Below, piece by piece: positions 4,016 through 45,200 of a stretch of DNA of 64,000 bases. The translations under genes and the position numbers were made by a program. The DNA is from Buxus sempervirens (lineage: Eukaryota > Streptophyta > Magnoliopsida > Buxales > Buxaceae), in the NCBI GenBank assembly GCA_947561395.2, contig OX387184.1:38244766-38308765 (forward strand), read 5' to 3'. Position 1 is the first letter of the stretch, and every line of letters starts with the position of its first letter. The notes under the pieces were generated by a model that saw only the letters and a program-made list of their open reading frames with translations, searched no databases and was not told the origin of the DNA.

Positions 4016-4182
4016 GACCGCATTTTAAGTGCGGTCAAGGCACGACCGCACTTAAAATGCGGTCATGGCCTTCTAGAAGCGGAACACGCGTCCCGTACGG
4101 CGCCAACTAGCGGATTCGGCATGTGGGCGACTCGACCACATTTGAAATGCGGTCGAGGCACGACCGCACTTCAAATGCGGTC
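4016..4182 (+). promoter_or_regulatory. Phased palindrome array, two pairs, upstream of TATA
   Basis: Four 21-bp palindromes with arms GACCGCA and TGCGGTC start at 4016, 4044, 4134 and 4162 (the third has one mismatch, GACCACA). Spacing is 28, 90 and 28 bp. The last ends 14 bp before the TATA box at 4197. Each arm has a CG dinucleotide. Confidence 0.85.
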
Positions 4183-4196: not shown

Positions 4197-4204
4197 TATA
4201 AATA
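4197..4204 (+). promoter_or_regulatory. TATA box of solo LTR
   Basis: TATAAATA preceded by a GCC, 754 bp into the LTR and 14 bp downstream of the palindrome array. A purine-rich GAGA tract follows at 4228-4270. Confidence 0.75.
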
Positions 4205-7453: not shown

Positions 7454-8944
7454 TTATGGCTCCTCTCTCAGCAGGTCGAACTTGTTGAGACTTGGAGTAC
7501 CATTTGCATGAGCCTCCTCTAGAGACAAGGGCCCCGACCTAGATTGAACCTCGTTGATATCTCCTTTATCCCCATCAATCGGTTCATTTGAGCAAATAGA
7601 TAAGCTGCTATTAAGACTATTCTCTTCCACCACTACTTCCTTACCTTTAGAGATTCGCCTCCATGCAGGTTCGGATTCAAATAACCTGACGTCGTTCCCT
7701 GCAGAAGCACTGGGATGGCTCACATTCTGATCAACGCACACTTGGGGTTCCCCTTCTAGAATCTCAGAAACTTCAAGGATGGAATCATAAATTCTCCCGG
7801 TGGGTCTTCATTCTCTGGCTCTCACCCTATAACATCTGTTCTCTGAATGGCCAAAGACTTCACAAACTTTGCATCTAACAGGCTTCCACCCATACTTGAT
7901 ATTGATCTCTGATTCACACACATTATTAGTTCCATATTGCATGTAAACCTTATCAAGATAAGAACACTTGGTATCCACTTCAACGCAAACTCTAGCAAAG
8001 CTTAGCTTCGACCTTTTCTCAGTCATCTCATCTAAGAACAGTGGTTTGCCGACACCACTAGCTATGAAACTTAATCCACTTGGTGTCCAAAGCTCTAGTG
8101 GGATGTTGAACATTTTAATCCATGTAGGAATCTTAGTGAGCTGAGATTTCTCTAGAATTAGATTAGGCTCCCATTCCCGGATGACCAGCAACCATCCAGC
8201 CATGAACCAAGGTCCCTGGAACAGCATCTTATCCCTCAACGAGGAACAAACGAATCTTAATAGAAAGAAACCATTTTCGATATTCAGAACCTCTACTTGT
8301 CCCCACATCTTTGAAGCCAAGCTTTTTATGATGTTGAGAAGTAAGCTTCTGTCTAGAAAGTATCTGATGGGACAGCCCTTCCAAAGGTGAACACCTTCTT
8401 GAACCACCTCCGGCGGAGGTGATACAACAACTTTGCCGTCAACCATCTTTGGTTCGAAATACGAAAGCTTAGACTTCTCAGAGAACGCGTTCTGGAATAG
8501 GTCAAACCAAGGTTTTCCAATCCTGGAAGTTTTTGAATTCTCCACCTCTTCAGTCGCAGTAGTATGGTTGGGGCAAACGGCTTGAGACTAATGCAGATTC
8601 AACAGCTCATAAAAGGCATCTCGATTAGCCCTACTGGAGCTGCCCCGCTCAGTTACAAAGTCACTGGAACGCTGACCGAGGTCAGCAAGGTCAACAAGAC
8701 TAAGAGGCGGGAATTCAAATTCGAAATTTGAACACCGATCATTAGGCGACTGCCGATTAATCGGCTCACCTGCAACTGCCTCGGCTAGCTTTACCGCCAT
8801 TGATAACGTTCCATGTTCAGGAGGAATGGGAGGAGACAAGGGCATCGCAACCCACCAAGTTCCACCAGGATCTTGACTTCCTGGAAAAGGTAGCTCGCGA
8901 AGCAAACAAAGGCGAGGGTCAAACAAGCCAGACCTGATGACCAC
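7454..8944 (-). pseudogene. LINE ORF1, DUF4283-like and zinc-knuckle protein
   Basis: One frame runs from 8944 to 7454 (about 497 codons) with two in-frame stops (8588-8590 and 7808-7810). The middle third has the DUF4283-like pattern (LLRF, then MLFQGPWFMAGWLLVIREWEP, then IPTWIKMFNIPLELW). It is followed by a CX2CX4HX4C zinc knuckle (CKVCEVFGHSENRC), typical of plant LINE ORF1 proteins and thought to bind the element RNA. The tail is low in recognisable features. The ATG at 8944 is the first of the frame and may not be the original start. It ends 167 bp upstream of ORF2. Confidence 0.85.
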
Positions 8945-9238
8945 ACCAAATAATCCTGTGCTCGACTAAGCTGTAGAACTCTTCAGTAGAGAGGACCAAC
9001 AAGCATCGAAACCCTTGCAACGGACTCCTTCACAGACCACAAGACACAGCAAAGGAAGGAACCTTGCTGCAGGCACACGAACGTCCACAATCTCTTGCTG
9101 CTTAACCTTGCTCACGAACGCCAAGCTGCAATGCTTGCTGCTAATCCTTCATAGGGACTCCAAAGTGATCGCTCCCACACGACCCTAATGACAAAGGTGC
9201 AAGCCGGTGCGAGCCGGCGCAAGCCGATGAGCACAGCT
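8945..9238. other. Probable LINE 5' leader, no gene seen
   Basis: Unique-looking sequence between LINE ORF1 and the solo LTR at 9239. It continues at 12352 after the LTR and its CAGCT duplication. Read on the minus strand it would be the 5' leader of the LINE. No open frame of note. Confidence 0.45.
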
Positions 9239-14735: not shown

Positions 14736-15045
14736 TGCAGTTCATCCTGGTAGTACAAAGATGTACCGAAACTTGAAAGCTGTTTTAATGGTGGTCAGGA
14801 ATGAAGAAGGAGATAGCTGAGTTTGTATCCAGATACCTTATTTGTCAGCAGGTCAAAGCAGAGCATCGTAGACCTCCAGGCTTATTGCAACCACTACCTA
14901 TTCATGAGTGGAAGTGGGAGTAGGTTACCATGGATTTTGTGTCTAGATTGCTGTCTACGACTAAGGATCAGGATGCTATTTGGGTGATTGTAGATCAGTT
15001 GACAAAATCAGCCCACTTCTTGCCTATTCAAACTAATCAGACATT
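14736..15045 (+). pseudogene. Ty3-gypsy integrase fragment, chromovirus-like
   Basis: Plus-strand remnant of about 100 codons covering the HPG motif, the WWSGMKKEIAEFV segment, the zinc-finger cysteines (LICQQVK) and the start of the catalytic core (TMDFVSRL, then DQLTKSAHFLPI). A frameshift near 14790 and a stop near 14922 break it. The wording of the motifs is that of Tekay/CRM-type chromoviruses and differs from the Tat-type integrase at 53.2-54.3 kb. It is cut on the left by an LTR end and on the right by the antisense-ORF-bearing element. Confidence 0.8.
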
Positions 15046-16407
15046 GGCTTCACTTGTAGGGGGAAGAACTGCAGGAGGATCCTCTGGTACTGGAGCATGA
15101 CTCTGCACCTGCTCTTTGATCCAGAAATGATAATCCTTCACATGGGACTCAGAAAAGACTGGACCCCGCAAAAAGCGAACATAGGACCACTCATTCATTA
15201 ATTGAGCATTTAGCCCCATGGTGGCTGATGTAAGTGGCCCTACAAGGCTCTCATAGCCAGTTGGGATCATAATTCCCTGGGTCGCTCCAAACTGTCGAAG
15301 AACCCTCAAAGGAAGATAGAGAACAGCAGATTTCCAACCTGCCAGGACCAGAAAGTTCCTATCTCTGAAGCTGATCACCGTTTCTGGATTAGGCTGATAA
15401 GTGCCAGGCCATCTCACTTGATCATCCTGGAGAGTACCCAAAAAAGTGAACCATCCCTGCTTGCCGCCTTGGATATTAGGACAACCCCTGTGGCTCATCA
15501 AAACAGGAACTTTCAATCTTGGAAAGAAGCGGCGAGTTATCTCTTCAACTTGACTCAGGTGGTCAAGCAACCAAAGCTGCAAAAAATGAGAGAACTTCAG
15601 AAAAAAAAAAAAGAAAGAAAAAAAGGAAAAAAAAAAGAAAAAAGAGAGAAAAGAAAAAAAAAGAAAGAAAAAAAAAGAAGAAAAAATTATTATTATTTCT
15701 TTTTTTACCTGTAGGATAGGGGCGCAAGCAAGGAATCGTTTCTTTTTTCTGAAATAGCAGTCAGTTAAAGCCTGGTATATCTCTGCCAAGATCATAGGAG
15801 CCAATCTCTCACGTTCCCTAACCTGGCAGATAACTGAGATGAGAGCCAAGTCAACCTGGTCATCACCCCGTGGAAAGAGCAGCTGGTTGACCACTATCAG
15901 AGTCAAAGCATTAAACCTGGCATTCTTGTCCCCACTCCTTAGAAGTTTTTCAGTCAAAAAGGTCTTGGACAAGGTCAATAGGGTATCAGAATTTCCTAAG
16001 TCTTTCTTCCCTATACCCAAGAATGTAGAGGCCTCCTTTTTGTAGCTAGGCTTTAGGGGAGGGTTCACAACTTTTTCAGAAAATCTTAGGCCAAGGATGG
16101 TTTCAATTTCTTCTATTGTAGGAGTCATCTCTTTGTAATCAAAATGGAAGAGATTCAGTTCAGGAACCCAGTGTCCAATCAAAGCTTCAATGATTTCCCA
16201 TTTAAAGGGAATTTTAGGGATGTGTAGGATATGCCATAAGTGGATAGAATCCCAGCGAATTTCTTCATCAAGGGTCATGGAGTTAACCCACCTATCATAG
16301 AAGGAATCCACAACATTGTACCTGGTGAGATTAGGAGGTTTTGATCTAACAAGTTGTCTTGCAGAAGAAGATCCATCGACAGAAGAGAAAGGGGCGAAGG
16401 AAGCCAT
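15037..16407 (-). CDS. Antisense plant-mobile-domain-like (DUF7745-type) ORF of a Tat element
   Basis: An open frame of 456 codons, or about 412 if the intron-like part (15577-15708) is spliced. The pattern W-x-I-x-ALIGHWVPELNLF followed by EMTPTIEEIETILGL matches the plant mobile domain / DUF7745 family. The same protein type is ORF1 of the giant element (30705-31756), and segments such as LTLIVVNQLLFPRGDDQVDLAL align with it. Tat-type elements are known to carry such extra genes, either before gag in sense or after pol in antisense. Here it is antisense, between an integrase remnant and the polypurine tract at 16939. A TATA box lies about 90 bp upstream of the ATG. The last codons run into the integrase remnant, so the original C-terminus may be lost. 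Function is unknown; DNA binding is inference. Confidence 0.8.
   Translation of the reverse strand: MASFAPFSSVDGSSSARQLVRSKPPNLTRYNVVDSFYDRWVNSMTLDEEIRWDSIHLWHILHIPKIPFKWEIIEALIGHWVPELNLFHFDYKEMTPTIEEIETILGLRFSEKVVNPPLKPSYKKEASTFLGIGKKDLGNSDTLLTLSKTFLTEKLLRSGDKNARFNALTLIVVNQLLFPRGDDQVDLALISVICQVRERERLAPMILAEIYQALTDCYFRKKKRFLACAPILQVKKEIIIIFSSFFFFLFFSFLSFFFFFSFFSFFFFFLKFSHFLQLWLLDHLSQVEEITRRFFPRLKVPVLMSHRGCPNIQGGKQGWFTFLGTLQDDQVRWPGTYQPNPETVISFRDRNFLVLAGWKSAVLYLPLRVLRQFGATQGIMIPTGYESLVGPLTSATMGLNAQLMNEWSYVRFLRGPVFSESHVKDYHFWIKEQVQSHAPVPEDPPAVLPPTSEANV
15577..15708 (-). other. Probable spliceosomal intron within antisense ORF
   Basis: On the minus strand the segment begins CAG|GTAAAAAAAG and ends in a pyrimidine-rich tract with CTCATTTTTTGCAG|CT, so it has GT-AG borders. 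It is 132 bp (a multiple of three) without stops and codes only for Phe/Ser/Leu runs. The homologous ORF at 30705-31756 has no counterpart: CAP-x-L-x joins W-L-x-DHL directly at that point. Splicing would restore the family alignment. Confidence 0.75.
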
Positions 16408-16498
16408 GAAAACACCAAAGAAGACAAGGAAAGCAGAAAACAGAAGGCTCAGGGAGTTTTCAAACTTTTAAAAGTGTCACAATGACGTCCCCCATGAG

Positions 16499-16506
16499 TT
16501 TATATA
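16499..16506 (-). promoter_or_regulatory. TATA box of antisense DUF7745-like gene
   Basis: Minus strand reads tttctatataaactc, about 92 bp upstream of the ATG at 16407. Four phased palindromes (16512-16614) lie directly upstream of it. Confidence 0.7.
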
Positions 16507-16511
16507 GAAAA

Positions 16512-16614
16512 TCCGTAAAAGCAGTACGGGCTACAGGCACCTGTAAAGGTAATACGGTCCACTTCGCCCGTGTTCAAATTACGGGCAGCATCTGTCCGTA
16601 ATGCAAATACGGGC
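16512..16614 (-). promoter_or_regulatory. Phased palindromes upstream of antisense gene
   Basis: Four 21-bp imperfect palindromes built on GCCCGTA and TACGGGC start at 16512, 16539, 16566 and 16594, so the period is 27, 27 and 28 bp. The nearest is 5 bp from the TATA box. The same motif with exact 28-bp period occurs in the LTR of the same element (17058-17162). Confidence 0.85.
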
Positions 16615-16938
16615 GAAGTAGAAAATTGCATATTTTATTATTTTCTCCACACTTTTCAGGAGATTAATGTTTATATTAGTTGTAAGTTGCAAGGATTGCC
16701 ATCTTACCCACTTTTGTTTAAAAATTTTGTGTCAAATCTCACTTCATAGCCACGAGTGCTCAGTGAGAGGAGAGAGGAGGATTTGGCCCTTAAGCTGAGG
16801 GACTTTTAGCAAATCTTCCACAATAAATCCTTTTTCATCCATTCAATCCTTACAAAATGCAATTAGTAAGACAAAGATCTCAAAAAGTGCAATTGGTGGG
16901 TCTTTTTTGCTCTCTGCTTGTAATTGGTTCCAATTACC

Positions 16939-16955
16939 AGCAAAGAGGGGGCACT
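16939..16955 (+). other. Polypurine tract before 3' LTR
   Basis: agcaaagagggggcact immediately before the LTR start TGTAGACACCCC. Compare ggcaaagaggggcagc before the 3' LTR at 56538. It shows that the LTR is a 3' LTR and that the element runs in plus orientation, opposite to its DUF7745-like gene. Confidence 0.85.
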
Positions 16956-17057
16956 TGTAGACACCCCAAATTGCACTACAAAATGAGAAAATAATGAAAA
17001 CATTAATTGAAAGTTAAAACAGGCCAAAAAGGCATGAAAATCAATAATTAGAGCCTG

Positions 17058-17162
17058 GACCGTATTATCACTACGGGCTGAGCATGCCCGAATTTTGAAT
17101 ACGGGCACGCAGCGCCCGTAATACATATACGGACACCTTTGGACCGTAAATCCTTTACGGGC
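17058..17162 (+). promoter_or_regulatory. Four palindromes at exact 28-bp period in LTR
   Basis: 21-bp imperfect palindromes start at 17058, 17086, 17114 and 17142. Arms are variants of GACCGTA/GCCCGTA and TACGGGC/TACGGAC. They lie 200 bp upstream of the LTR TATA box. Confidence 0.88.
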
Positions 17163-17362
17163 ACATTAGACTCGTGCGAGTTCTGTTCTTCTCTCGATTT
17201 CTGAGCCTTATCTTTAGTCCAATATCCCTTTAAATGAGCGAATTATATATTTTATTCGTGCGAAATATCTTTGTGGATAAAGGATGGGCATGATCTTGTG
17301 TTTAACTCAAACTGAAACTCTATCTTGCCAAACCTTGGACCAACCATACCCCTATGTTTGCC

Positions 17363-17370
17363 TATAAATA
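17363..17370 (+). promoter_or_regulatory. TATA box of LTR
   Basis: TATAAATA in the context gcctataaatagaggg, about 400 bp into the LTR. Confidence 0.75.
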
Positions 17371-17544
17371 GAGGGCCTTTCCTCAAGCAAAAGGCCACGA
17401 AAATTTGAAGTCCAAGAAGCTCCAAGAGAAGAGAGGAATCCCTGCTGCCCTGCTTGCTCAATCCAGGTAAGTCCCTTTTCCCTTTTATTTTCTGTCTTCA
17501 ATTCTAGAAGCAATAGGATTTTCTCCTTTTTTGTAGAATAAGGC

Positions 17545-17830
17545 CATCTTTTGTATCTAGTATTCCTAAACTTGTCTCTAAGTACCTCAAGAGTCTCTCT
17601 AGCCGTAAAACGTGAAGAGAGAGCTAGGGGAAAAGAGAACAGGTGGATCCCTAGAATAGAACCCCATATCTGTTTTTTCCTTTTTTCTAGAATAAGGCCT
17701 TTGATTGTGTTTGTATACCCAAACCTATCTCCAAGTACCTCAAGAATCCTCTCTAGCCGTAAAACGTGAAGAGAGAGCTAGGGGAAAAGAGAACAGATGG
17801 ATCCGTAGGGTAGACCCCCATGTGCTCAAA
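17545..17830 (+). repeat. Tandem duplication, about 155 bp, two copies
   Basis: The segment with ctctagccgtaaaacgtgaa and gagctaggggaaaagagaac occurs at about 17595-17650 and again at about 17752-17804. Both are followed by a ggatcc and a CCCC run. It lies in the transcribed part of the LTR, downstream of TATA. Confidence 0.8.
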
Positions 17831-18763
17831 ATTGTGAGATGTGGCTGCTTTGAATATCCTAATCGTGTTTTAATGCTTTTTATGATGAACCTGAATGAAT
17901 ACATGAATCCATGATGTTTATAGCATGAGATCCCCACTTTTTTATAAAATGTGGATTTTCCACATATTTGCACCTATAGCACTGTTTTCGTGATTTTTGT
18001 GATTTTAGGCTAAGATCTTGGATTTATCATGATCAATATGATAGATTTGAATCCAGAAGCCTAAAAATAAATTCTAGGGTTTCATAATATGATTTTTGAA
18101 TCGTTTTTCATTATTGAGAGAAGACCCTACGGTCTAAGTTCTCCCCTTTTGATGTTTTTCATCAATGTGGGCATTTTTGGTTTTGATTTTCAGATTTAAT
18201 GTGAAATTTGAGCTATATCTATGTCCTGGATTATTCAAGTTTAATTTTGAAATATTTCATAAAAATCATATTTTTCCAGATTTCTAGAATTTGACTTGAA
18301 GCCAGATTTTTGGATTTTTCACTTTAAATTGATTTTATTTGATTTTATCTCAATTTTATTTTGATCATGAAACCCTAGGAATGGTATGATCATATTTGAA
18401 AGTTCTGGATCAATCAGACTATTCATATGAAAAAACCATATATTTTTGTCTTTTTTGTGATTTTTCCTGATTTTATAGCAAGCCTTTTTTTCCTTTATTT
18501 TAACATGAACAATACCTCGCAACCACCTTGTGTGGATGAATAGGGGTGCCTAACACCTTCCCCTGTTCATAACCTAATCCCCTTACCCATCTCTGGTTGT
18601 TTTTTTTAGGAGGGTTATTTTTACCCTAGAATTGCCTTTTGTACTTATTTAATATTTTGGTGTCCATTCACACCTAAATTGAATGGTGGCGACTCTTTGT
18701 TTTATTTAATCCCGTGTGATGATTGAGGAAGTCATTGAATTTGATTTTTTCCCATGTCTCACA

Positions 18764-22499: not shown

Positions 22500-23460
22500 C
22501 AACTAAACCCTAGGGTGTACCTAAGGCATACCAGGGGTACCTTAGTGTTATTCGAGTGGGGTACCTTGGTATTAAGTGGGGTACCTTAGTGTTGAATGGG
22601 GTGTTTGCCTTAGCCACTTCAAAAGGCATGCTTTAGGGATGCTTGGGAGGTGTACCTCAGTTACAAGAGGGGGTACCTTAGCTACATAAGGGGCTATACC
22701 TTAGGGAAAATAGTGGGGGTTACCTTACTTATATATGGGTTACTTTAGTGAGACAAAGGGGGTACTTTGGCTATATAGGGGGGTGTATCCTAGGTAAAAC
22801 AGTGGGGGTACCTTACTTATATGAGAGGAGTACTTCTAGGAAATACAAGGATATACCCCCGGTAATGTAAGGGATGTACCTTAGTAATATAAAGGGGTAC
22901 TCTAGCTATACAAAAGGGGTACCCTAGCTATATAAAGGAATGTACCTTAGGTAAACAAGGGGGTACTTTAAGTAAAATGGTAGGGTACTTTAGTTAAAAT
23001 AAAGGGATGCCTTAGGCAATACAAGTGAGGTACCTTAAGTATGATTAGGAGGTACTTTAGGTATTCGAATGGGATACCTTAGGCAAAACAGTGGGGTACC
23101 TTAGCCAATATGAGTGAGGTGCCTTAGGTAATATAAGGGGTTACTTTAGGTATACATGTGAGGTACCTTAGGCAATGCAAGGGGATACCTTAGGTAAACA
23201 TAGGGGTACCTATAGGCAAACACAAGGGGATACCTTAGATGAACACAGGGGTACCTTAGGTATACTTAAGAGGTTATTTGGGTACTCTTGAGAAACACTT
23301 AAGATACACTTGAGAGGTACCTTGGGCATTCTTAAGAGTTACTTTAGGTACTCTTAGGGGATAATTTGGGTACACTTAGGAAGTACCTTGTGTATATTCT
23401 GAAGGTACTTTAGGTACGTTTAGACTAATTGGAGGGTACCTTAGCCAATTGAAATTGAGA
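22500..23460. repeat. Minisatellite of ggtaccttag(g) units
   Basis: About 35 to 40 degenerate units of 22-35 bp sharing ggggtaccttag or close variants, spread over nearly 1 kb. It lies in the U3 side of the minus-oriented LTR, between its start and the TATA box at 22444. Confidence 0.85.
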
Positions 23461-24247
23461 AATAACATTATCTAAGCTTACCTTAATAACCTTCAATAGA
23501 GATCAATTTGATTTCCCCTAATTCCTTAAGTTTGATCCACATCCACCTCACCTTCATAACACAAGTACTTAATTAGCCTAATAATCACACTTTAAGTAAT
23601 TAAACTTAATAATTAAAGTAAAATCCGGGTCGGGGTTTTACAGGCCTTCTTTGTACTGGTGGGTTGTGTAAGCACCTCATTTTTGCGCTCCCAGAAGAGC
23701 CGAAAATGCAAACCCTAGCCGAAAAGTCAAACCCTGAAGGGGCAAAAGTTGACTTTTTGATCAAGTTATAATTGGCCACCTTGCTTTATCTCAATGGATA
23801 GAGAATCCCGACACGGTTCCAATGCAACTGAGTTTGCAGGAATCGAAGTCCGGATGAAGGTTCTGCAGGCTGGTCAAACTTAAGGGGAGCTGAAAGTTGA
23901 CTTCTTATTAAAATCCAAATCAGGTACTTAGCCCTATGTCAATGGATAGAGGGCTCCGATATGGTTTTAACGCAACTGAGTTTGCCCAAATCGGAGTCCG
24001 GATGAAGAAGATATGAGCTGTCGAAGTTTCCGAGCAGCAAAACCCAGAAAGCTGCACACGTGGCAAAAGGCTGCACACTTGGCGAGAAGTGCAAAAAAAT
24101 ATCTCGAGGGGCAATCCGTGAATATCCAAACATGTAAAATATCCCAGGGATTGAATTAAAAACTCGCAGGGACCAAATCTGTGAATATCCAAGTGTATCG
24201 GGTGAATCTGCGAATATCCAAGGACTAAATCTGTAAATATCCAATTT

Positions 24248-24492
24248 GTATCCGACATTTAATGTCAGATACACACTCTTCTCTTCATATCCGACATATA
24301 TTGCCGGATACAAAAGATTTGCTCGGCTGGATTCGCGCGGATTTGCCGACAGATACGCGACGGCATTAAATTTCGAAATTATTTCTTTTGTATCCGACAT
24401 TTCATGTCGGATACAAGTAAGCTTCAATGTATCCGACCATATATGTCGGATAATCTTAGGATATAGTGTATCCGACATATATGGTCGGATAC
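24248..24492 (+). promoter_or_regulatory. Five 25-bp palindromes phased at 39 bp upstream of TATA
   Basis: Palindromes with arms GTATCCGAC and GTCGGATAC (small variants) start at 24248, 24287, 24390, 24429 and 24468. Spacing is 39, 103, 39 and 39 bp. The last ends exactly 12 bp before the TATA box. Confidence 0.92.
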
Positions 24493-24504
24493 ATTAAAGT
24501 TTTC

Positions 24505-24512: not shown

Positions 24513-25594
24513 CAGCAGCACCCCCCCCCCTTGCCGGGGGTTGGCTCCTTTTGTTGGTTGGAAGATTTCTTCCCCCACCCATTTTGGTGCAAACCTCCCT
24601 TTTCTCAGCTCCCTTAGCCCCCATTGCCTTCCCACTCTCTTCCAAGACCATCCCACCCTTGTTTCCTTCTTCTTCTTCACTTTCTTAATCAAACTAAAAG
24701 AGGTTTGTTGCTGTTGGAGTAAGGCATGTGCACCAAGGGACTTTCCGGTTGCTGTCCAGCTACAAGGAGGTGTTTCCATGTAAGCACCTCATTTTTGCGC
24801 TCCCAGGAAAAGCCGGAAAGTCAAACCCTAAGGGGTGAAAAGTTGACTTTTTGATCAAGTGATAATTGGCCACCTCACTTTATCTCAATGGATAGAGAAT
24901 CCTGACACGAGTCCAACGCAACTGAGTTTGCAGGAATCAGAGTCCGGATGAAGGTTCTGCAAGCTGGTCAAACTTGAGGGGGAGTCGAAAGTTGACTTTC
25001 TGCTGAACCAAGATCCAGATGCATACCCCTATGTCATTGGATAGAGGGCTCCGATGAGATTCTAACGCAACTGAGTTTGCAGGAATCAGAGTCCAGATGA
25101 AGGTTTTGCAGGCCGGTCAAACTTGAGGGGGAGCCAAAAGTTGACTCTCTGCTAAACCCCGATCCACATGCTTACCCCTATGTCATTGGATAGAGGACTC
25201 CGATATGATTCTAACGCAACTGAGTTTGCCCAGATCGGAGTCCGAGTGGAGAAGATATGAGCTGTCGAAGTTTCCGAACAGCAAAACCGGTAAACTGCGC
25301 ACGTGGCAAAAAGCTGCACACGTGGCAAGTTGCGCAAGAAAATATCTCGGGGATCAAATCTGTGAATATCCAAACGTACGAAATATCATAGGGACCAAAT
25401 CTGTAAATATCCCAGAGTATCGGATTAAATCAAAAATATACAGGGACTAAATCTGAAAAAACCGGATTTTCCGACCATTTAGCGGCCGCATTAATGGTTT
25501 TTCAATCATTTTGCTGCTCGCACAAGCAAGGCAAGCGCGAAATGCGCACAGCGCCAGCCAGGTGCCAACCTAGCGGATACCTGATCCCTCTTTC

Positions 25595-25601
25595 TATAAA
25601 A
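25595..25601 (+). promoter_or_regulatory. TATA box of 5' LTR
   Basis: TATAAAA in the context tttctataaaagccgc; the same context occurs in the 3' LTR at 57373-57379. A CCATT...GCGGCCGC...AATGG palindrome lies upstream at 25475-25497. Confidence 0.75.
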
Positions 25602-26226
25602 GCCGCACCATACTTCGTGCAAAGGGTTGGGAACTTTTTTAGTCGAGAGATTTTCTTTGGTTGGCTTTGCTTCTGTTTCCCTTCCCTCCCTCGTCCGAGC
25701 TCCATCTCTTCTCATCCCTCCTTGCCTCCAAAAACCCCAAGTACCTCACCCCGATCGTCAGACACTCCCTTCCCCTCCTTCGTTCTCCTCCATTTCCACT
25801 TAAGGGAGTGAAAGCTCGCTGCCGTCGGTGCAAAAGGAAGGGAGCTCCAGCGTTTGTGTCCTCTCAAGGAAGAACCTCCACCTTGCACAAAAGCTCAGGG
25901 AACCTTAGGTATTGTTCCTCGCCCATTCTTACTTGACATACATGAAAACGGGAGTCATATAAGCATGCTATCGAATCTGTTTTTCCTTACTTAATATGGC
26001 ATGCATGCTCTTCCATTTTGGGTAACAAGGAGGTCTCCAAGGGTAAGGGAGACCTCATGCACGAACCCTTTAAGAAGATGAGGGTTTTATTGCTCCATCC
26101 AGTGCTCATAATGTACCTGGGTTTCTTTCCAAGCACTTTTATGAGGAACCTATTCCTCACTTATCTCGTCCGATGTACCCCTGTAAACCCCCCTCTCTCT
26201 CCTTTCCCTGAAGGTTTATTGATGCG

Positions 26227-27413
26227 TGTAAGTGTGAAAACTCACACTCCTTTTATGGCAAATGTTTGACAAATTATGTCTTCTAATAAATCTTCAAGAT
26301 GTGCAGATTAAATAATGAAAATTCAGTGAATTTAGTAAAGAAGAAGAAGACGATACTGCCACACAGCTACCACGCCGCTGGTAGCTCAAGGAAATGAAAT
26401 ATTTTCTAAATAGAGCATTTCTTGTAAAGGCACTTGCGAAGATCAACGCCGCTGCCACTCCGTTGGCAGCACATAAGTGAATCAGTGCTTTGAAAGTAAG
26501 GCACGTGCACTAGCGTCGTAAGGTGACGCCGACACGCCGCTGGTAGCGCAGAGCGAGATTGAAGATTATATGATCAGCTGTGCATATGCCGCGTTCTCTC
26601 CCGCTAGCAGCTCGCTGGCAGCGCGCCCTTAACTGATTCAACCTGTTCTGAGCGGGACTTGAGTTCGCTTCCAGCCGTCTACCCCGATCGCACCACGACG
26701 CCACCAGCGCTCGACGCGATCTGAGTTTTCTCCTTTAAATAGACGTGCTGTAATTTTTAGAAATGACTTTTCTTCTTTGGATCAATTTGATTTTGGATCT
26801 TGAGGTGTTCGAGATTCGATCAAATCTTCTTTAGAGAGTCGGTGATCGAGTGATGGGGAGATCTGAGATAGATCGCCTAGAATTGAAGGTTGAGGATTCT
26901 TCTTCAATTCGGAACTTCACCTGATCGTGTGATCGCCTGGATTGGTGATCGACTTTGTTGGATGCGTAGGTGGATTCCTACTGCATTGGATCGTCTCAGT
27001 CGACTCTGAGGTGATTGTTGCGATCTGGACTGATCATGTTCTGCAGCTTGTGGATTCAAGCTGTGTTGCAGTTCGTGGATTCGAACTGTGGATCACTGTT
27101 GAGTGATTGTTTGCGATCTGGATTGATCGTGTTCTGCAGCTTGTTGATTCAAGCTGTGTTGGAGTTCGTGGATTCGAGCTGTGGATTGCTGTTGAGTGAG
27201 TTCAATTGTAAACGTTAAGTGTGTGCTCCTTTGTAATTGTCTTTCCATTCAATAGTGGAAATTCGAAGGATTAGTCGCCTCATATAGACTCGAGGTTTTT
27301 CCTGGATCTGGATTCAGGTTTCCTCGTATAATTCTCTGTGTGTATGTTTCCGCATTGTTAAATTCTTAATTGTTGTAGATCGTGGACCTATAGAGTAGTC
27401 CTCTACTCTTTCA
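26227..27413 (+). mobile_element. Solo LTR of SIRE/Maximus-type Copia element
   Basis: 1187 bp, begins TGTAAGTGTGAAAACTCACA and ends CTCTACTCTTTCA. Perfect TSD ATGCG at 26222-26226 and 27414-27418. The uninterrupted 3' LTR of the host element confirms that it is an insertion (57995-58010). It is related to the LTRs at 47130 and 61751 but more diverged. It has CG-rich inverted motifs such as GCTACCA...TGGTAGC (26366-26385) and GCTGCCA...TGGCAGC (26451-26470) upstream of a ttaaatag box near 26735. A ~95-bp direct duplication with ctgcagcttgtggattcaag lies at about 27010-27195. Confidence 0.93.
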
Positions 27414-29190
27414 ATGCGAATGCGGAGCTTAGGTTTAGTTCCGGTTAGGGGTGCCGTGGAGATACAAGCTTAGACATGTTGCCATGTTCTTTTTTCTTCT
27501 GGCATGACTGTATTTCTTTCTACTGGTGCATTTCTTTTTTTTTTCGTTTCTTCTCCCTTGTTTGCAAGTGTTATAAGGTAAGGTTAAATGCATGGTTAGA
27601 TTTAAGTCCGGTTCCCCTTCTTATGCATGTAACCTCTCTGTTTTGTCTCCCGTTTACTTGGTTACTGTCATAGGAGTCAAGTCAAGCATGCCCCCATCCC
27701 CCTTCTTCGTTTGCTGTTGGAAGTGTAAATCATGCTTCTGTAAAGTTAGATTAATTTTGAAGTAGGTTAGAATAATTTCAAAGTATGTTTAAAGGTCTCC
27801 TGGGAGTCTGGGGAGGTGTTACAGAGCTCAAAAACCCAACCAATCATGGAGTTTTCAGAAAAATAGAGAGTTGTCTTCGCAGAAGGGTGTCCGCCGAGCT
27901 GGCTCTGAGCTCGCGCTCAACGCTTTTTGCGCTGACCTCGCGCCTAGCGCCTGAGGTCAGCGCACCCTCTTAAAAATGCAGAATTGCTTGTATTTTTGAA
28001 AACCCAACAGTGCCCTTTACCGTACCGCAGGGGCTTTGCCCCCTGCACGGGACCTCGTCCCGTGGGCTCCGCTTCGCTCCGCCCACAGGTGCCCCAAGTC
28101 CCTCCCCTTGGACCCAGAATAGTGAGCCGATCTCCCCTAATAAGTGTCAATTTTGCATATTTTCTGTGATTATTGCTGGATGTGGATGGCATTTCCAAAC
28201 CGAACCAAATGAACCAATAGGGTTTCCGAGTCACCCGGAAACCCAACATGGGACTTGGACCCCCGGTCCAACTTGATTTCCCGTGGGCCTTCCAACGGGG
28301 CCCACCAAGCCCAATTAACACAATGGAATGCATGCATGTGACCTAATCAAGATAAATAAATTAACTAATCAATCGGGGCGGGCCAAACCCAATGCGGCCC
28401 ACCCGAACTTGTTTGTGAATTGATGTATGGAATGTGTGGTTTGGCCGAGACCAAGGGCAAGGGCCTATCGGGCCCGCCAAAGCCTACCAACCGAACCAAG
28501 GAAGGGTGAAAACCCTAATTTCATGTGACTTGGGCTTTCAAGCCCGAATTAGGACTACGGGCCCCAAGCCCAATGTCCAACCCATTTTTTTGGCAAACTT
28601 AACAAGATAAATCCAAAGCACCTTTGGCAACCATCATGGGGGCCCATCCAGGGGCCCACAAACCAATGCAGGCCCACCTTTTGCATGGAAATCACTTAAA
28701 CTTTAAATCTGAACCCTAATATAAAATCAATTTACTTAACCAAAAGCCCAAAGGGCCTCTTAGGCTAGACAGAGGCCCACAAGGGTACATGGGCTTGACT
28801 AAGCCCACCAAGGACACCGTGGGCCTTCCAACAGGGCCCACCCAACCAGACTTAGATTACCTAATTAAATCAAGATAAAAGAAATTAAAGGGACCCACAC
28901 CACTCAGGTGATCCCACCAGACTTAACCAGTTTGCATACCGACTTAGGAATCGGGTGAGAAAATAAGTGAGTTGACTCAAACCAGGATAAACCTAAGGGA
29001 CCGGTCACCCGACGTGGTGGGCCAGGGTGTTTACGGACTTCCCGAACCACAACCGAGACCCTACTTAGAATCTCAAGCCGTAGACCAAAGCCTTAATAGA
29101 CAAGATTAGGCACCCAGGTGTCCGCCTGCACCCCATCAGGCAGTGGCGACTCCGAATTTTCAATGCGGCATTTCCGACGCGCGCACAGCC

Positions 29191-30704: not shown

Positions 30705-31756
30705 ATGGCATCCTCGTCCTCATCTAAGAGAACCCGTTTTCCTAGGATAGAGAAGTGCGCCTGGGATACCCCATGGATCCGTTCTTGGACAAAGCAGCTC
30801 CAAGGGAGTGAGCAGATTGAATGGGAGCACAAATACCACATGGGACAGACTTTATCCCTGTTAAATGTGCCGATCAACTGGGATATGATCCAAGCAGCTT
30901 TGCTTTTCTGGGATCCCAGCTTTCAGTATTTCGATTCGGGATCATTGAGTTGACTCCTACAATTGAGGAACTTGACCTGTTTCTCCGATTTTGTGACTTA
31001 GGAGAACCTGCTAGGCCAAGCCTCAAAGAAAGCTATAAGAATGAAGCTTGCGCTTTCTTTGGCCTCTCAAGGGGAGAATTCCATACCTTAGGAGGTGACA
31101 AATCATTCACTAGGGTCTCCAAAACATTCCTTGCTGAAAAGATAAGAAACAAAAAGCAGGAAAGACCCCGTGCTTGGTTTGACACCTTAACCCTTGTGGT
31201 TCTGTCGCAAATCTTCTTTCCAATTGGGGGAGACACCATTAATTTGGCCCTCATGGAAATTGTGGATCAACTCAGGCTAGGATACCGAATCATGCCACTA
31301 ATCCTAGCTCAATTGTTCCATTCCCTGACTTTGTCCAAAAATGGAACCTGGAGGTTTCAAGGGTGCGCTCCCCTTCTCCACATTTGGCTGCAAGACCACC
31401 TGATGGTGTCATCACCTATCAGTGCACATTACGGATTAGCCCGTGACAACATCTATTGGTTGGCTCAAAGAGAGATCAAACCAGACCTACCCGCTCGTGA
31501 GGATTGGCTTAACCACTTTCTCCACCTGAAGGAAGAAACAGATATTCGATGGTGGGGCACATACAACATCCCCTACACCCCCATTATAGCTTTCAAGAAA
31601 AGAGAGGGCCTTTCCCTGATAGGACTCACCCATGCCATGTCATACTATCCGATTCGGGTTCTGAGACAGTTTGGGAAACCGCAGGGAATCCCGGTCAAGG
31701 ACGACATGAGCAGTTTGATTGGTCCACTCACTAAGGGACTAAGGACACAACTATAG
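30705..31756 (+). pseudogene. ORF1 of the giant element, DUF7745/plant-mobile-domain-like
   Basis: Starts at the ATG at 30705 (MASSSSSKR). The first 75 codons are in one frame and the rest in another, with a one-base frameshift near 30935, in the segment before ELTPTIEELDLFL. Family segments are NWDMIQAALLFWDPSFQYF, ELTPTIEELDLFL, LTLVVLSQIFFPIGGDTINL and YYPIRVLRQFG. A stop at 31754-31756 is followed by about 100 bp that still matches the family (FIESHFQDYEQW), so the original end was further on. The homologous ORF at 15037-16407 is antisense in its element and has an intron-like segment that is absent here. Extra ORF1 genes before gag are diagnostic of Ogre-type elements; their role is unknown. 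Confidence 0.85.
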
Positions 31757-36755: not shown

Positions 36756-39700
36756 TGTGCGTGCGTCGGAAACGTTGCACGAGAAAATTCGGAGTCGCCA
36801 CTGCCTGATGGGGTGCAGGCGGACACCTAGGTGCCTAAGTTAGTCTATTGGGCTTTGGTCTGCGGCTTGAGATTCTAAGTAGGGTCTCGGTTGCGGTCTG
36901 GGGAAGTCAGTAGATACCCCAGACCACCCTATTGGATGACGGGTCCCGTGGGTTCCCTGGTTTGAGTCAACTTACTTTGGTCTCACCTGATTCCTAATCC
37001 TGCATGCCATTTGGTTAAGTCTAACGGGACCACCTGAGTGGTGTGGGTCCCTTTAATTGATTTTATCTTGTTTATTTTAAGTGATATGAGTTGGATTGGG
37101 TGGGCCCTGTTGGAAGGTCCACGATGTCCTTGGTTAAGCCCACGTGCCTCTGTTGGGCCTCCGTCTAAGCCTGGAAGGCCCTTTGGGCTTAGGTTAATGA
37201 ATCAATTTTACTTGGTTTCTTCAAGTTGGAGACTTATGTGATTTTCATGCAACAAGTGGGTCTGCATTGGTTTGCGGGCCCCTGGGTGGGCCCCCATGTT
37301 GGTTGCCAAAAAATGTTTTAATTTATCTTTGAAAAAATGCACTGGGTATTGGGCTTGGGGTCCGTGATCCAGTTTTGGGCTTGAAAGCCCAGTTCTTTGA
37401 AGTCTAGGGTTTGCACCCTAACTTGGTTGATTAGTGGGCTTTGGCGGGCCCGATAGGCCCTTGCCCTTGGTCTCGGCCAAACCATGCTATTTAAAACACA
37501 CCATTCAACGAAACCAGTTCAAGTGGGCTGCATTGGGTTTGGCCCGCCCGGCCCGATGAATTAATTTTGCCTTATTTTGCTTATTGGCATGCAAAGAAGT
37601 TTATTGGGCTTGGTGGGCCCCATTGGAAGGCTCACAAATGTTCCATGTTGGACCTGTGGCCCATGTCCCAAGTTGGATTTCCGGGTGACCCGGAAACCCT
37701 ATTGGTTCACTTGGTTTGGTTAAAATTATCACAAAAATTCGACAAGGATGAAAAAAAACATGAAAATGGCATTTTTGGCATGTAGCCGACCTCTATGGTC
37801 GGCTACAAACACATCTTAGTGTTCGGCAACAAACACACCCAGGGTGATCCGACCTGAGTTGTCGGATCACCCTAAAATGGCCCTTTTTTGGGGTTTTGGC
37901 CATTGGGGTTGTTTCCAGGGGTTCCTAGGGATCTTCTACAAGTCATGTGGGCCCTTGGGCAGGCCCACATTGGTTCTGGTATGGGGGAGGGGCCCCCACT
38001 TTGGTTTCCTTTGTGATCTCCAGCAAAGACACAAAGAAGAGGGAGCATGGGAGTTGCTGCCCCCATTACTTTTCTCAGCAATGCAACAGCAGCAAGGTAG
38101 GGGTCTTTGCACCCCTACCTGGGTGTTTCGCCTTCCTTCATCAGTGGCAAGCCAAAACCCAGCAACCAGGCACCCTTCTTCTATGCTACTCTAGCACAAA
38201 CACCGAGATATGAGAATGTGGGTCAGCAAACAAAAAAAGAAAAAAAACAGCAGCCAACGTGAACCGATTTAAACATGCTAAGCGAGTGAGGGATACATGG
38301 GGGTTAATAACACTTATGTGTGGCATTTCGGGGGCTGGTTTAAGAGTGCAGACACATGGGAATCTGCTGGGACAGCAACCATTTAGAGGAGATTAGAATG
38401 CTCTTGTGGGACTGGCAATAATGGACAGTGGGGTGGGGGAGCAGGTTCATCATTGTGGGAGGTAACATACCAAGGGATAGGGCTGCTGCTGCTGCACCCA
38501 ACAGCAGCTTGGGTTGGCCACAACAGTGGGTTAAAGATGGGGGGGAGCATGCTTACATACACATACGCAAAAAACAGCAAATACAAAGACGAGGTTGGTG
38601 CTTCTAGTCGGTAGCATGCTTGGTTTAATAAAAGAAAGCAGCAATTGTGCATGGGGTGGGGGAGTATGGTCATGGGGTTTGCACATGCACGTATGCAAAT
38701 TTAGGAAACAAGTAGGTAGGCCATGCATGCACCAAGTAAAAGAGAAAGGAAAATAGACAAAGGGGCTGCTGTAGCTTCCATCATCAGCCCATGAAGGCCA
38801 CCCTATGGATAACAGTAGGGGTAAGGGATCATGCTTGTGATGGGCTGAGGGACTGGGCTTAGTCTTAGACTTTTAATCCTGCTAGGACAGCAGAAACTAA
38901 TGAGAGTTTGCTGCTGTCCCCAGCAGCAACTCACCTAAGTCATAGCAAAGGGAGCATGACAATGGCTCCTCACATGATATCCAAGAAAAAAATCAGGCTT
39001 AGATATGTAAAACAGCAGGTAAAAAGGGGGGAGCAGGGACATGCATACATGCACATTGAACCAAGCAAACGGGAAAGGGGTTAGGGGAGCATGCATCAAC
39101 AAAAAACAAGTAGCAAGTTCATGGGGGAAGGAATCTTGCTTGGCATTTCACATGACAGCAAAGCAAAGGAGAAGGACACTAACGAACAGAGACTATAAGC
39201 ATGCTCTAACCACACCCAAAACAGTAAGCATCATAAAGGCACACCCAGCAGAAAAAACACAACAAAATAAACAACAAAACTATAAGAGAAAATGACAAAA
39301 GAGGAGAATTAGGAAGGGAAGTGGGGGGTAGTTATAAGGGTACATCAGAGGGGGACTTAGAAAGAACATACTCCCTCTTTAATGGATGAGGGTACTGCTG
39401 GAATCCCAAAAAAAAGAAAAAAGAACAGCCAGTTAAAACAAGCTATGCGATCTCCTCTCTCTTGCATAGAAACTCCGGGGACTTGCCCCTCTCACCATGG
39501 GAGAACCACATGACTCATGGAGAGCTCAAAGAGGCCATCATGATAAAGAAGAGAACCAATGCCTCAACCAAAGAACCCACCCCAACAGCATGAAGAGCTC
39601 ACATACTTCCAATCAACCAAAATGTATATATATTAAATAGAGCCTTACCAAGAAGTTTACCTTGTGTGTACAACTTGTTCCTGAGGTGTGCTTCAACCTC

Positions 39701-40898
39701 CTTTGGGTGTGGAGGGTGCTGGAACACTCCCTTGCAATCCCAACAGCAACTAACCCCCTTGGGCTTTGGTGAGAAAGTGGAGAAGAAGAAGAAACAAGAG
39801 GTGGAGTGGGGTTGGAAGGCTTCCTTGGGGGTTGTAGGCACCTCCTTGGAGCTTGGACAAGAGCTGGGGCCTCTTCTCCAGCAACCACAGCAGCAACTAA
39901 TCCCTTTTTGTGCTAGTAGAGAGGTGGGGAAGAAGAAGAATGCAATAGGTTTTGGGGTGTTGGAGTGGAGTGGGGTTGGTGGAGGCAAAAGGTGCTCCAA
40001 AGTGAGAGGTTCGGATGAGAAGAAAGAGGTAAAAGAGGTGCCCAAACCAAAGAAATGAGCCAACCATCATGAAGGGAGCTGCTGGTGGCATTTATAAGAA
40101 AACTTAATGTATCCGACCATATAGGTCGGATACACTAAGTCCCGTTTGTATCCGACATAAGATGTCGAATACAAAACATAATAATCTCGAAAATTAAATG
40201 CCGCCGCGAATTTGTCGGGGAATCGGCGCGAATCTCGCGGGGGGATCTCGTTGTATCCGATGAATAGTGTCGGTCATGCACAAAAATACATGTATCCGAC
40301 ATTTAAGATCGGATACAAATCCGATATTTACAGATTTAGCCCTTGGATATTCGCAGATTCATCCGATACTCTTAGATATTCACAGATTTGGTCCCTACGA
40401 AATTTTGCTTTAAACCTTGGGATATTTTGCATGTTTAGATATTTACAAATTGCCCCTCGAGATATTTTCTTGCACCACCCGCCACATGTGCGGCTTTTTG
40501 CCACGTGTGCAGCTTTCTAGGTTTTGCTGCTCGGAAACTTCGACAGCTCATATCTCCTTCATCCGGACTCCGATTTGAGCAAACTCAATTGCGTTGGACT
40601 CGTATTGGAGCCCTCTATCCAATGATATAGAGCTAAGCACCTGGCATAGGGTTCAGCAAAAAGTCAACTTTCGGCTCGCCCTTAAGTTTGACCGGCCTGC
40701 AGAACCTTCATCCGGACTCCGATTCCAGCAAACTCAGTTGCGTTGGACTCATGTCGGGATTCTCTATCCATTGAGATAAAGCAAGGTTACCAATTTTCAC
40801 TTGATCAAAAAGTCAATTTTCCACCCCTTAGGGTTTGACTTTCTGTTTAGGGTTTGCATTTCCGGGTCTTCCGGAAGGGCAAAAATGAGGTGCTTACA
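36756..40898 (-). mobile_element. Solo LTR, Tat-type, minus orientation
   Basis: 4143 bp, begins TGTGCGTGCGTCGGAAACG and ends AAAAATGAGGTGCTTACA (plus strand). Perfect TSD ACATC. On the minus strand it starts TGTAAGCACCTCATTTTTGC like its relatives. A TATA box (minus) is at 40091-40096, and palindromes with GTATCCGAC/GTCGGATAC arms start at 40109, 40148, 40253 and 40292. A further GTAGCCGAC...GTCGGCTAC palindrome is at 37782 and the 25-bp GG(A)TTTCC...GGAAACCC palindrome at 37675. Open frames inside it are chance frames. Confidence 0.95.
40109..40316 (-). promoter_or_regulatory. Phased palindromes and TATA of minus-orientation Tat LTR
   Basis: Four palindromes start (plus coordinates) at 40109, 40148, 40253 and 40292; spacing is 39, 105 and 39 bp. 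The nearest is exactly 12 bp from the minus-strand TATA (TTTATA at 40091-40096 on plus). Same layout as 24248-24512. Confidence 0.92.
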
Positions 40899-42234: not shown

Positions 42235-45200
42235 TGTGCGCACTCGATTTCGGTCGCATGACGAGGCGCATGCAAAATGATGCGTGCCTCGGGATTTGTT
42301 TGGAGTCGCCACTGCCTGATGGGGTGCAGGCAGACACCTGGGTGCCTAAGTTTGTCTATTAGGGTTTGGTCTACGGCTTGAGATTCTAAGTAGGTTCTCG
42401 GTTGCGGTCTGGGAAAGTCCGTAGACACCCCAGTCCACCCCATCAAGTGACGGGTCTCATAGGTTTCCCTGGTTTGAGTCAACTTTTGGTCTCTTACTCA
42501 CCCGATTCCTATTCCAGCATTCAATTTGGTTAAGTCTGGCGGGACCGCCAAAGTGGTGTGGGTCCCTTTACTTGATTTTATCTTCTTATTATTGAATGAA
42601 GTGAGTCTGATTGGGTGGGCCCCTTTGGAAGGCCCATGGTATCCCTGGTGGGCTTGGTTAAGCCCACGTGTCCCCTGGTGAGCCTCAGTCTAGCCTAAGA
42701 GGCCCTTTGGGCTTTGGTTCAATGAATCGATTTTATTTGAATTTCAAGTTTGATTATTAAGTTGGTTTGAATGCCAAAGTGGGTCAGGATTGCTTTGTGG
42801 GCCCTTGAGTGGGCCACACAGTTGGTTGCCAAATGATTTAATTTATCTTTGATTTATCTTCACCAAAATGGGCCAGGCTTTGGGCTTGGGGCCCTTTACC
42901 TAGGCTTGGGCTTGAAAGCCCAAGGCTTCTTGAGTTAGGGTTGGGAAACCCTAAAATTTGTTCGATTTAATGGGCTTTAGCGGGCCCGATCGGCCCTACC
43001 CGCAGTATTGGCCAAACCAAACCTAGAGCTAAACAGCATGCTACTGAAACTAGGCTTGGGTGGGCCTCCAATGGTCTGGCCCACTCAATTGATTTGATTG
43101 TCTTCATTTAGCAAAAATGGGTTAGTCGGGCTTGGTGGGCCCCGTTGGAAGGCCCACTGTAAATCAATTTGGACCGGGTCGGTCCAAGGCCCATCTTGGG
43201 TTTCCGGGTGACCCGGAAACCCTACTGGTTCACCTGGATTGACCAAACAAACCAAAGAAATAGCACAAGATCAGAAAATGGTGCAAAATGGTATTCTGGC
43301 AGTGTAGCCGGCCTGAGATGCCGGTTACACACAGAGCTCAGTGTATCCGGCATCTTTTGTCGGCTACGAGTAGGGCTCTGTTGATCCGGCCTGAGTTGCC
43401 GGATCAACATACAGAAGCCTTTTTTCCGGATTTTTGCATTGGGGTTGGGTTCCTAAGCTTCCTATGATGTCCCAGGGATTGCGTGGGCTCCTGTGTGAGC
43501 CCACATTGGTACAGGGAGAGGGGGAATGTCCCAATTTTGCCTTCTTTTAGGACTTTGGTGGTTCAAGCAAAGGGGGAGGAGGCTTAAGGTGTTGCCTCCT
43601 CCCACTCTTGGGATACTTCCAGCAGATGAACAGGGACCTAGGTGTCCCTGTTTAGTTCTCCCCGGTCCGCGCAACAACAAGCAAATAAAGTGGTGAGAAA
43701 ACAACAATCAAACCTATCCTACATGCTTTGACTATAGTGAACATGCTTTAACATCCTCATATTGTGTGCATGAAAAGTGGAGGGTGTGTGAGTGTACCTA
43801 CAGCGTTGCAAATGGATATACATGCATGATCGAACTTGGACAAGCATGTCATACTACCGACTTTATGCTTAAAAGAAACACAAGGTCACCAAGGCACAAC
43901 TATTTTAGAGAAGGGAAAGAGAGGGAGATTAATAAGGGGTACAATGGATGGATCATGCTAAGGGGAACATGCTCCCCATCACCAAAAAAAATGGACTCAA
44001 AACAATAGTTAAAATGACTAGAAGGAAATGTGGAGGGTCACCTCTCATCCTCCCATGGAGCCAAACGTGATGCTCATCTTACCTAGGAGATCCTCATGTG
44101 GTGGCAATAAGAACATGATACATGCCATATATGCACTTGAACCGACTTACAGCAAGGAAGAAAACCATGCTCATTAATATGCTTAGAAAACCACCATTTT
44201 TACATATACGTAAGGAAACTTAACAAGAAGCCATACCTTGGGGTTTCAAACCCTTCTTGTGGTGTGCTTGGACTTCCTTTGAAGCTCAACAGTGGCTAGA
44301 ACATCTCCTTGTGCCACCAAGAACAGCAAGTCCTCCTTTGGGTTTGAGTGGAAATGAAGAGGAAGAAGTGAGGAGATAGTGGGAGAGTCTTAAGGTTGTG
44401 CTTGAGGGTTTAGGGAGCCAAAGGGGGGCAAGGTGAAGGATTTCCAGAGTGGGCACAGAGGGGGAAGAAAGGTGGAAACAGCAAAAGTGAAGCCAACCCC
44501 GGAACTGGGCTGCTGTTGGCCTTTTATAGGCCAACTTAATGTATCCGGCAACTCAGGCCGGATACACTAAACCTTGCTCATAGCTGGCCTCTATGGCCGG
44601 CTACACATTTGTTCCTTTGTATCCGGCATTCAATGTCGGATACAAAACACAATTATTCGAAAATTAAATGCTGCCACGAATTTGTCGGGCGTACGGCGCA
44701 AATCTCGCTGATTGATCTTCTTGTATCCGATGAATAGTGTCGGATATTCACAGGGGTATGTGTATCCGACATATTTGGTCGAATACAAGTCAAAAAATTA
44801 CAGATTTGCCCTTGGATATTCGCAGATTCATCCGATACTCTTAGATATTCACAGATATGGTCCCTGCGAAATTTTGCTTTAAACCCTGGGATATTTGATG
44901 ATTTTTGGATATTTGAGATTTAGTCCTTGAGATATTTTGCTGCATTGGCTGCCACGTGTGCAGTTTCCGGTTTTGCTACGCAGAAACTTCGACAGCTCAT
45001 ATCTCCTTCATCCGGACTCCGATTTGAGCAAACTCAGTTGCGTTGGACTCATATCGGAGCCCTATATCCAATGATACAGAGCTAAGCACCTGGCACGGGG
45101 TTCGAGAAAAAGTCAACTTTAGGCTCCCCTTTAAGTTTGACCTGCCTGCAGAACCTTCATCCGGACTCCGATTCTAGCAAACTCAGTTGCGTTGGACTCA

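Follow-up and report, generated by a model that had tools for sequence, protein, structure and literature searches.

Matched palindrome arrays at two opposite promoters of a plant LTR retrotransposon: candidate operators, perhaps for the antisense PMD protein of the element

Two oppositely directed promoters of one LTR retrotransposon, that of the LTR and that of an antisense PMD gene, carry the same array of palindromes. In a sample of related elements, the two arrays of one element were always found to be of the same class, across three classes. The arrays may be operators for a dimeric, class-specific factor acting on both promoters, and the element's own PMD protein would be the most likely such factor. 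On the present sequence evidence, we give this reading about even chances.

Results

Two palindrome arrays in one element

The window (the whole stretch of DNA that was analysed, 64 kb) contains the 3' end of a retrotransposon at 15037-18763, in which an antisense gene is followed by a polypurine tract and an LTR of 1,808 bp (Table 1). Since the purine tract AAAGAGGGGG stands before the LTR, the antisense gene is upstream of a 3' LTR. The antisense frame (15040-16419) matched the Pfam profiles PF24924 (DUF7745, 6.8e-24) and PF10536 (PMD, 1.7e-19), which supports the DUF7745-like nature assigned to the gene in a preliminary description of this DNA and adds PMD to it. Two features are absent from that description: a GT-AG intron of 132 nt at 15577-15708, and an apparent truncation of the gene near 15050, where an unrelated integrase-like stretch adjoins (read by eye).

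Array A, upstream of the antisense TATA box, consists of four palindromes of the type GCCCGTA-N7-TACGGGC, starting at 16511, 16539, 16566 and 16594 (2, 3, 1 and 1 mismatches, respectively) in steps of 28, 27 and 28 bp; the nearest is 4 bp from the TATA box. Array B, inside the LTR, has four more, starting at 17058, 17086, 17114 and 17142 (1 mismatch each) in steps of 28, 28 and 28 bp, and it ends 201 bp before the LTR TATA box. The eight palindromes in two arrays, as well as the exact 28-bp period of the LTR array upstream of its TATA box, had been described before and were recovered here. For array A, the four sites, the 27-28 bp steps and the adjacency to the TATA box hold, with two corrections: the first site starts at 16511 instead of 16512, and the gap is 4 bp instead of 5 bp. 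With up to three mismatches allowed, the palindrome was found ten times in the window, as compared with a mean of 0.75 and a maximum of 3 in dinucleotide shuffles (n=100). Arrays A and B account for eight of these ten matches; the other two are at 28542 and 59362. A chance origin of the arrays is ruled out by the shuffles, together with the single spacing peak and the near-absence of an 8-base spacer described below.

Table 1. Positions of the features of the window discussed in the text
Feature	Position	Strand	Basis
Antisense PMD/DUF7745 gene, alpha type	15037..16407	-	Pfam matches, splice signals, frame
Exons of the antisense gene	15709-16407, and second exon to ~15050	-	frame and splice signals
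Antisense TATA box, read as TATATAAA on the minus strand	16499..16506 (plus-strand coordinates)	-	sequence
Array A, four M1 palindromes upstream of the antisense TATA box	16511..16614	.	motif search and class comparison
Polypurine tract AAAGAGGGGG	16942..16951	+	sequence; junction pattern with 1,418 genome places
3' LTR (Type I), TGTAGACACC...TCTCACA	16956..18763	+	alignment with seven other LTRs; end from sequence
Array B, four M1 palindromes inside the LTR	17058..17162	.	motif search and class comparison
LTR TATA box CTATAAATA	17362..17370	+	sequence
M4 array, Type II LTR (~3443-5790)	4016..4182	.	last CGG 15 bp before CTATAAATA
M2 array, U3 of the Type II LTR starting at 23667	24247..24493	.	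last CGG 15 bp before CTATAAATA
Type II LTR with M2 sites at both places (40108-40317, 37781-37870)	37781..40317	-	site comparison
Type II LTR with M2-type (CCGAC/CCGGC) sites at both places	43303..44787	-	site comparison
Sense PMD/DUF7745 gene of a second element (LTRs ~24779-29187 and ~56538-59998)	30821..31756	+	Pfam

Four classes of palindrome in the genome

Motifs were counted in the genome to which the window belongs (676.5 Mb), and reversed motifs were used as controls. The class of the window arrays, M1, is GNCCGTA-N7-TACGGNC. Its perfect form GCCCGTA-N7-TACGGGC was found at 11,266 places (the same on both strands), and at only 4 places when the spacer was 8 in place of 7; both reversed controls gave 0. 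Class M2, TGTATCCGAC-N7-GTCGGATACA, with a period of 39 bp, is present in the window, and its perfect form was found at 3,954 genome places (control 0). Class M3, AACCGYA..CGGTT, was searched as AACCGNNCTGTNTNNNCGGTT and found 2,697 times forward and 2,697 times reverse (controls 0), and class M4, GWCCGCA-N7-TGCGGWC, at 1,733 places (control 0). It can be seen that CCG-N11-CGG is common to all four classes.

Some sites on contig C1 were noted in passing. At 10824428-10824448, GTCCGCA-CTGTATG-TGCGGAC combines M4 half-sites with the M3 centre, perhaps as a further class or an intermediate. Near 7812011-7833528 and 9454283-9475625, M3 groups stand ~21 kb apart and resemble, by position, the two LTRs of one element; further M3 groups in these regions stand where the antisense promoter would be, and others ~5 kb ahead of the 3' LTR.

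Upstream and LTR arrays are of the same class

Elements were sampled by the junction between purine tract and LTR start, to avoid a choice based on the motifs. The junction pattern was found at 1,418 places in the genome (718 forward, 700 reverse; controls 0). The first 41 of these in listing order, all on contig C1, were taken together with the window element (n=42), and each was examined over the 1,200 bp upstream and the first ~330 bp of the LTR. An array was assigned the commonest named half-site class among its CCG-N11-CGG sites. The half-site rule names AACCGTA as M3, both here and in the comparison with 5' and downstream arrays; the Type II analysis used core letters only.

Both arrays were present in 25 of the 42 elements, with the combinations M1/M1 in 14, M3/M3 in 10 and M4/M4 in 1; the upstream class is based on one exact site each in L018 and L055. 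In a further 16 elements, the only classed array was that of the LTR (14 of M1, an M1-M4 tie in L044, and M4 in L052), and one (L029) had the upstream array only. Stray half-sites of other or no class occur inside arrays, for example upstream in L061 (three M4 and one AACCGCA). Co-variation of the two arrays, which the preliminary description had proposed as a check, was observed in all 25 elements with both arrays. Related elements with unlike motifs at their two promoters would have been contrary evidence, and none was found among the 25. Its view of one element with two opposite promoters under the same array, for which a single factor is the simple reading, is therefore upheld.

The matched arrays rest on few independent switches. 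In a tree of the non-array DNA, all ten M3 elements form one clade (100/100), and the distribution of M1, M3 and M4 needs 3 changes. Because M3 is one clade, its ten elements represent one switch and L061 another, that is, two joint switches and not eleven. For M2 elements with an antisense gene, one junction pattern was tried and gave 0 matches, so that M2 was compared only between the LTR and 5' internal or downstream arrays.

Spacing, half-sites and polarity

Over the 42 elements, pairs of the form CCG-Nk-CGG peak at k=11 alone, with 71 pairs upstream and 130 in the LTR. Other spacings gave at most 6 and 8, respectively, and shuffles gave ~1 on average, with a maximum of 6 upstream and 5 in the LTR. 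Between the two arrays of one element, half-sites agree at 0.79 (M1) and 0.85 (M3), a comparison in which the half-site-matched choice of sites favours half-sites; the spacers agree at 0.31 and 0.32.

These values bear on whether the match reflects inheritance or copying alone, one array having been copied to the other place without any function. The single M3 clade is in keeping with such an origin, and VANDAL motifs are described as spreading through tandem repeat formation (PMC5735166). However, the spacers of the two arrays are unrelated while spacing and half-sites persist, and the 8-base spacer is nearly absent. A recent transfer of one array to the position of the other is unlikely, and we consider copying without function as the whole explanation very improbable.

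The M3 centre, CTGTATG, is non-palindromic and is oriented with transcription at both promoters (0.61 versus 0.33), while sites of M1 (0.34 versus 0.31) and of M4 (0.43 versus 0.46, four pairs only) have no polarity. At positions 2/20 of M1, pairing covariation was looked for and not found, the two being complementary in 0.41 of cases and in 0.43 after shuffling. Taken together, the results on spacing, half-sites, polarity and pairing suggest a protein that reads two half-sites and hence is probably a dimer; in M3 they point to a reading of the centre as well. Half-sites that are able to pair around a 7-base loop might also form RNA hairpins or DNA cruciforms and not be protein sites at all. 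This seems hardly tenable and was rejected: the M1 positions show no pairing covariation, the CCG and CGG letters are fixed and not compensating, and the M3 centre is non-palindromic.

A TATA word comes right after the antisense array in the window element, in L032 and in the three M3 elements examined; near the array of 5 of the 10 elements examined (L030, L035, L038, L061 and L062) none was found.

Arrays of Type II LTRs and of 5' internal regions

In Type II LTRs, one array immediately precedes the TATA box and a second lies further downstream. Perfect M1 palindromes were the criterion by which Type II loci outside the window were chosen, and their M1 class is thus no finding. In 14 M1 LTRs of this type, the U3 array ends 15-16 bp before CTATAAATA in 10 and 43-47 bp before it in 4, as if one unit were missing from the latter. 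Their downstream arrays are degenerate. Among named cores, TA leads in 13 of the 14 and is tied in the other (L023), but it makes up more than half of the downstream half-sites in 7 of them only, and AC, GC or CA cores, single or paired, occur in 10. In the window, the M4 LTR (~3443-5790) has an exact M4-core site downstream at ~5028, and the M2 LTR starting at 23667 has only one unclassed CCG-N11-CGG site downstream of its U3 array. The same 15-bp distance between U3 array and TATA box recurs with the M1, M4 and M2 types, which argues for a role of the arrays as operators.

The distance to the TATA box also bears on the sign of the effect. The same factor, PMD or host protein, might repress both promoters, as copy-number control or as an anchor for silencing. 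With arrays as close to the TATA box as here (4 bp in the window element, 15 bp in Type II LTRs), initiation could be blocked. Retrotransposon antisense transcripts may contribute to silencing (PMC7264820), and transposons are silenced in the host by the PMD proteins MAIN and MAIL1 (PMC7156037, PMC5418596). On the other hand, the M1 arrays of Type I LTRs lie 201-211 bp from the TATA box, and the LTR array is kept without an antisense array in 16 of the 42 elements, which is easier to explain if the array is helpful. Repression therefore seems unlikely to us.

In the Type I LTR of L024, start and TATA context are like those of the window LTR, but four M2-type sites replace M1, and M2-type sites are found in its 5' internal region as well. 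In L013, L017 and L022 the LTR array is M1, and their 5' internal regions contain M1 half-sites among others that are AACCGTA or belong to no class. Some Type I elements thus have a third array between the 5' LTR and gag.

The LTRs of the second element of the window each have a single M1-like palindrome (28542-28562 and 59362-59382) at like places and without an array, perhaps the remnant of a lost one. A second, archaeal-type RNase H in pol is a hallmark of Tat/Ogre-type Ty3/gypsy elements. RT_RNaseH and RVT_3 were both found in the pol of the second element, and the pol of L018 is 62% identical to it over 692 aa. L017 and L018 (99.7% identical over 2,324 bp) were considered as the two LTRs of one intact element; this was dropped, as a primer-binding site lies behind the L018 LTR. 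With LTRs ~13.9 kb apart (L017 5171, L018 4579), and the same internal sequence and a primer-binding site behind both, they are tandem elements.

Other repeats were noted as well. By eye, L017 has ~20 imperfect GGGCCTCTGAAAGCCTTTGAATTTCAGA-type units at 8500-9160, after the third palindrome array and before gag. The window has a degenerate array of ~22-bp GGGGTACCTTAGGTA-like units at 22510-23400, with at most 13 copies in one family, and long tandem repeats at 32485-33401 and 50332-51396, the latter in ~80-bp steps with three frames open on the minus strand.

The antisense PMD gene

The antisense gene of the window element is of a type, alpha, that is shared with L018 (first exon missing) and L032; when its exon 1 was searched within 1,200 bp in the 42 elements, only these three matched. 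Longer upstream pieces were read for four further elements, L035 (piece L067), L038 (L068), L027 (L065) and L049 (L066), and all four match PMD. The M1 elements L035 and L038 have a beta type of the gene, and the M3 elements L027 and L049 a gamma type. In Pfam, the window gene is above the cut-off for both PMD and DUF7745, and L065, L066 and L068 for PMD only; the PMD score of L067 is 30.2 bits, below the cut-off of 34.9. Read by eye, the genes of beta and gamma type appear spliced and continue with heptad-like and acidic stretches and a basic tail. In all the elements read, a PMD gene lies downstream of the array. Values of dN/dS were 0.12 for the gamma pair, 0.15 for the beta pair, 0.11 for alpha (exon 2) and 0.16 for gamma against beta, the last at a dS of 1.72, near saturation. 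With 0.11-0.16 in four pairs, the antisense PMD protein is under purifying selection.

Alpha is ~25% identical to beta and gamma in tblastn, where the match to L066 is not significant (E 0.059), and 21% identical to gamma in a multiple alignment; gamma and beta are 65-69% identical. No simple tracking of PMD phylogeny by motif class was found: the distant alpha and beta types share M1, while the gamma type of M3 is close to beta. Within the M1 part of the tree, alpha elements fall into two separate positions, which hints, on three elements, that the PMD gene may have been exchanged within a motif class.

Fourteen database homologues were found for the window protein (12 from Solanum, 1 from Punica and 1 without named species), one (Solanum) for the sense PMD protein and none for the L066 piece. 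The matches of the window protein to Solanum and Punica mark the genome as that of a plant. A search among solved structures gave no relative (best E 0.75), and Pfam scans covering part of each antisense gene gave no match to PF04195 (Transposase_28). The family linked with proteins of the VANC type is DUF1985. No DUF1985 match was found in the window exon or in L068, and the score of L066, 12.9 bits (E 0.11), is below the cut-off of 35.1.

Discussion

We propose that a dimeric protein reads CCG-N11-CGG, the flanking bases setting the class M1, M2, M3 or M4, and that several palindromes in phase near a promoter control its transcription. One factor would then act on two promoters, that of the LTR, which gives the genomic RNA, and the internal one of the antisense PMD gene. 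This gene would be autoregulated, with feedback in cis and in trans, and its product would also serve LTRs of its class in trans, including copies without the antisense gene. The net effect, we infer, would be activation or anti-silencing. If the specificity changed, the sites at both promoters would have to follow, and separate classes might arise in this way. Not all observations favour this scheme: M1 sites lack polarity, a TATA word was not found near the antisense array in half of the elements examined, and M3 is a single clade in a tree with only 3 changes.

The leading, unproven candidate for the factor is the PMD protein, as the preliminary description had supposed of the DUF7745-like protein. 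The finding of antisense PMD in the window element, L018, L032 and four further elements, with purifying selection on it, speaks for this candidate. Against it, motif class does not simply follow PMD phylogeny, alpha and beta both occurring with M1, and M1 is also present in Type II elements, of which L005 has a different, sense type of PMD gene.

The same facts may be read in favour of a family of host transcription factors, for which the arrays would be operators, the elements borrowing its paralogues and the two promoters being matched so as to fire in the same cell. This chief rival draws its strongest support from the occurrence of M1 with highly divergent PMD types and in two LTR lineages, and 16 of the 42 elements have an LTR array without one at the antisense place. 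However, four classes that share one geometry, with a single class throughout the arrays of each element, exceed what co-expression would require, and we know of no plant transcription factor with a CCG-N11-CGG site. This explanation seems to us possible but rather doubtful.

If it is the PMD protein that reads the arrays, PMD might more generally be a domain of DNA-binding regulators. The PMDs of Gypsy elements would read an operator code of their own, class switches would yield separately controlled groups with thousands of sites, and MAIN and MAIL1 would be host members of the family. To our knowledge PMD has no known DNA-binding function, and we hold this wider view only tentatively, at less than even chances. 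An antisense gene together with class-specific sites offers a direct test of DNA binding with M1, M3 and M4 as built-in controls. The function of PMD is given as unknown (PMC8616336, PMC5418596), and Gypsy elements carry the domain in many flowering plants; with the part of the host members MAIN and MAIL1 in transposon silencing, this makes the function of the domain matter. That captured PMDs serve anti-silencing has been put forward as speculation (PMC5418596), and a similar idea exists for TE-encoded PMDs (PMC8616336).

In searches of open-licence literature, no listed title was recognised as dealing with matched operator arrays, and the known systems each share a part of the present one. 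MAIN and MAIL1 belong to the same domain family as the antisense PMD (PMC7156037, PMC5418596). They differ in being host genes that silence transposons, of clade PMD-C, whereas the Gypsy-encoded clades are PMD-A1/A2 (PMC5418596). In their mutants, genes with the 'DOWN' promoter motif go down, the reader of the motif being not known (PMC7156037). Retand elements likewise have an antisense gene between pol and the 3' LTR, which the author suggests to be DNA-binding and regulatory, but with a Transposase_28 (TRP28) domain instead of PMD; tandem arrays were counted there, and the accessible text describes no operator common to both promoters (PMC11963269). Gene23 of maize Grande is also an antisense gene between pol and the 3' LTR, with its own promoter and a nuclear protein, again with no operator common to promoters in the accessible text (PMC7264820). 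In Ogre, PMD occurs as an extra ORF in 57% of elements, but promoter arrays are not described in the portion available (PMC6317226).

The closest parallel is VANC, the anti-silencing proteins of the VANDAL (MULE) DNA transposons of Arabidopsis (PMC5735166). In both systems, short element-specific motifs are dense in noncoding regions and differ between related families, and the gene of the reader, a candidate here and proven for VANC, is in the same element (PMC5735166). The placement is also similar, since arrays stand at the LTR and antisense promoters and more of them in 5' internal and downstream LTR regions. In contrast, VANC sites are motifs of 8-9 bases in one orientation (YAGTATTAY; AGTTGTCC/AGTTGTAC) (PMC5735166), and ours are inverted repeats of 21-27 bp with a fixed spacer. 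The carrier here is an LTR retrotransposon, with LTR, purine tract, gag and pol, and not a MULE DNA transposon, and the protein is PMD, without a DUF1985 match above cut-off, and not of the VANC type. The comparison with VANC made in the preliminary description thus fits as a parallel in presumed function. If our reading is true, the antisense genes of plant retrotransposons would gain an explanation, and LTR retrotransposons would own an evolving, class-specific control system comparable to that of VANC in DNA transposons.
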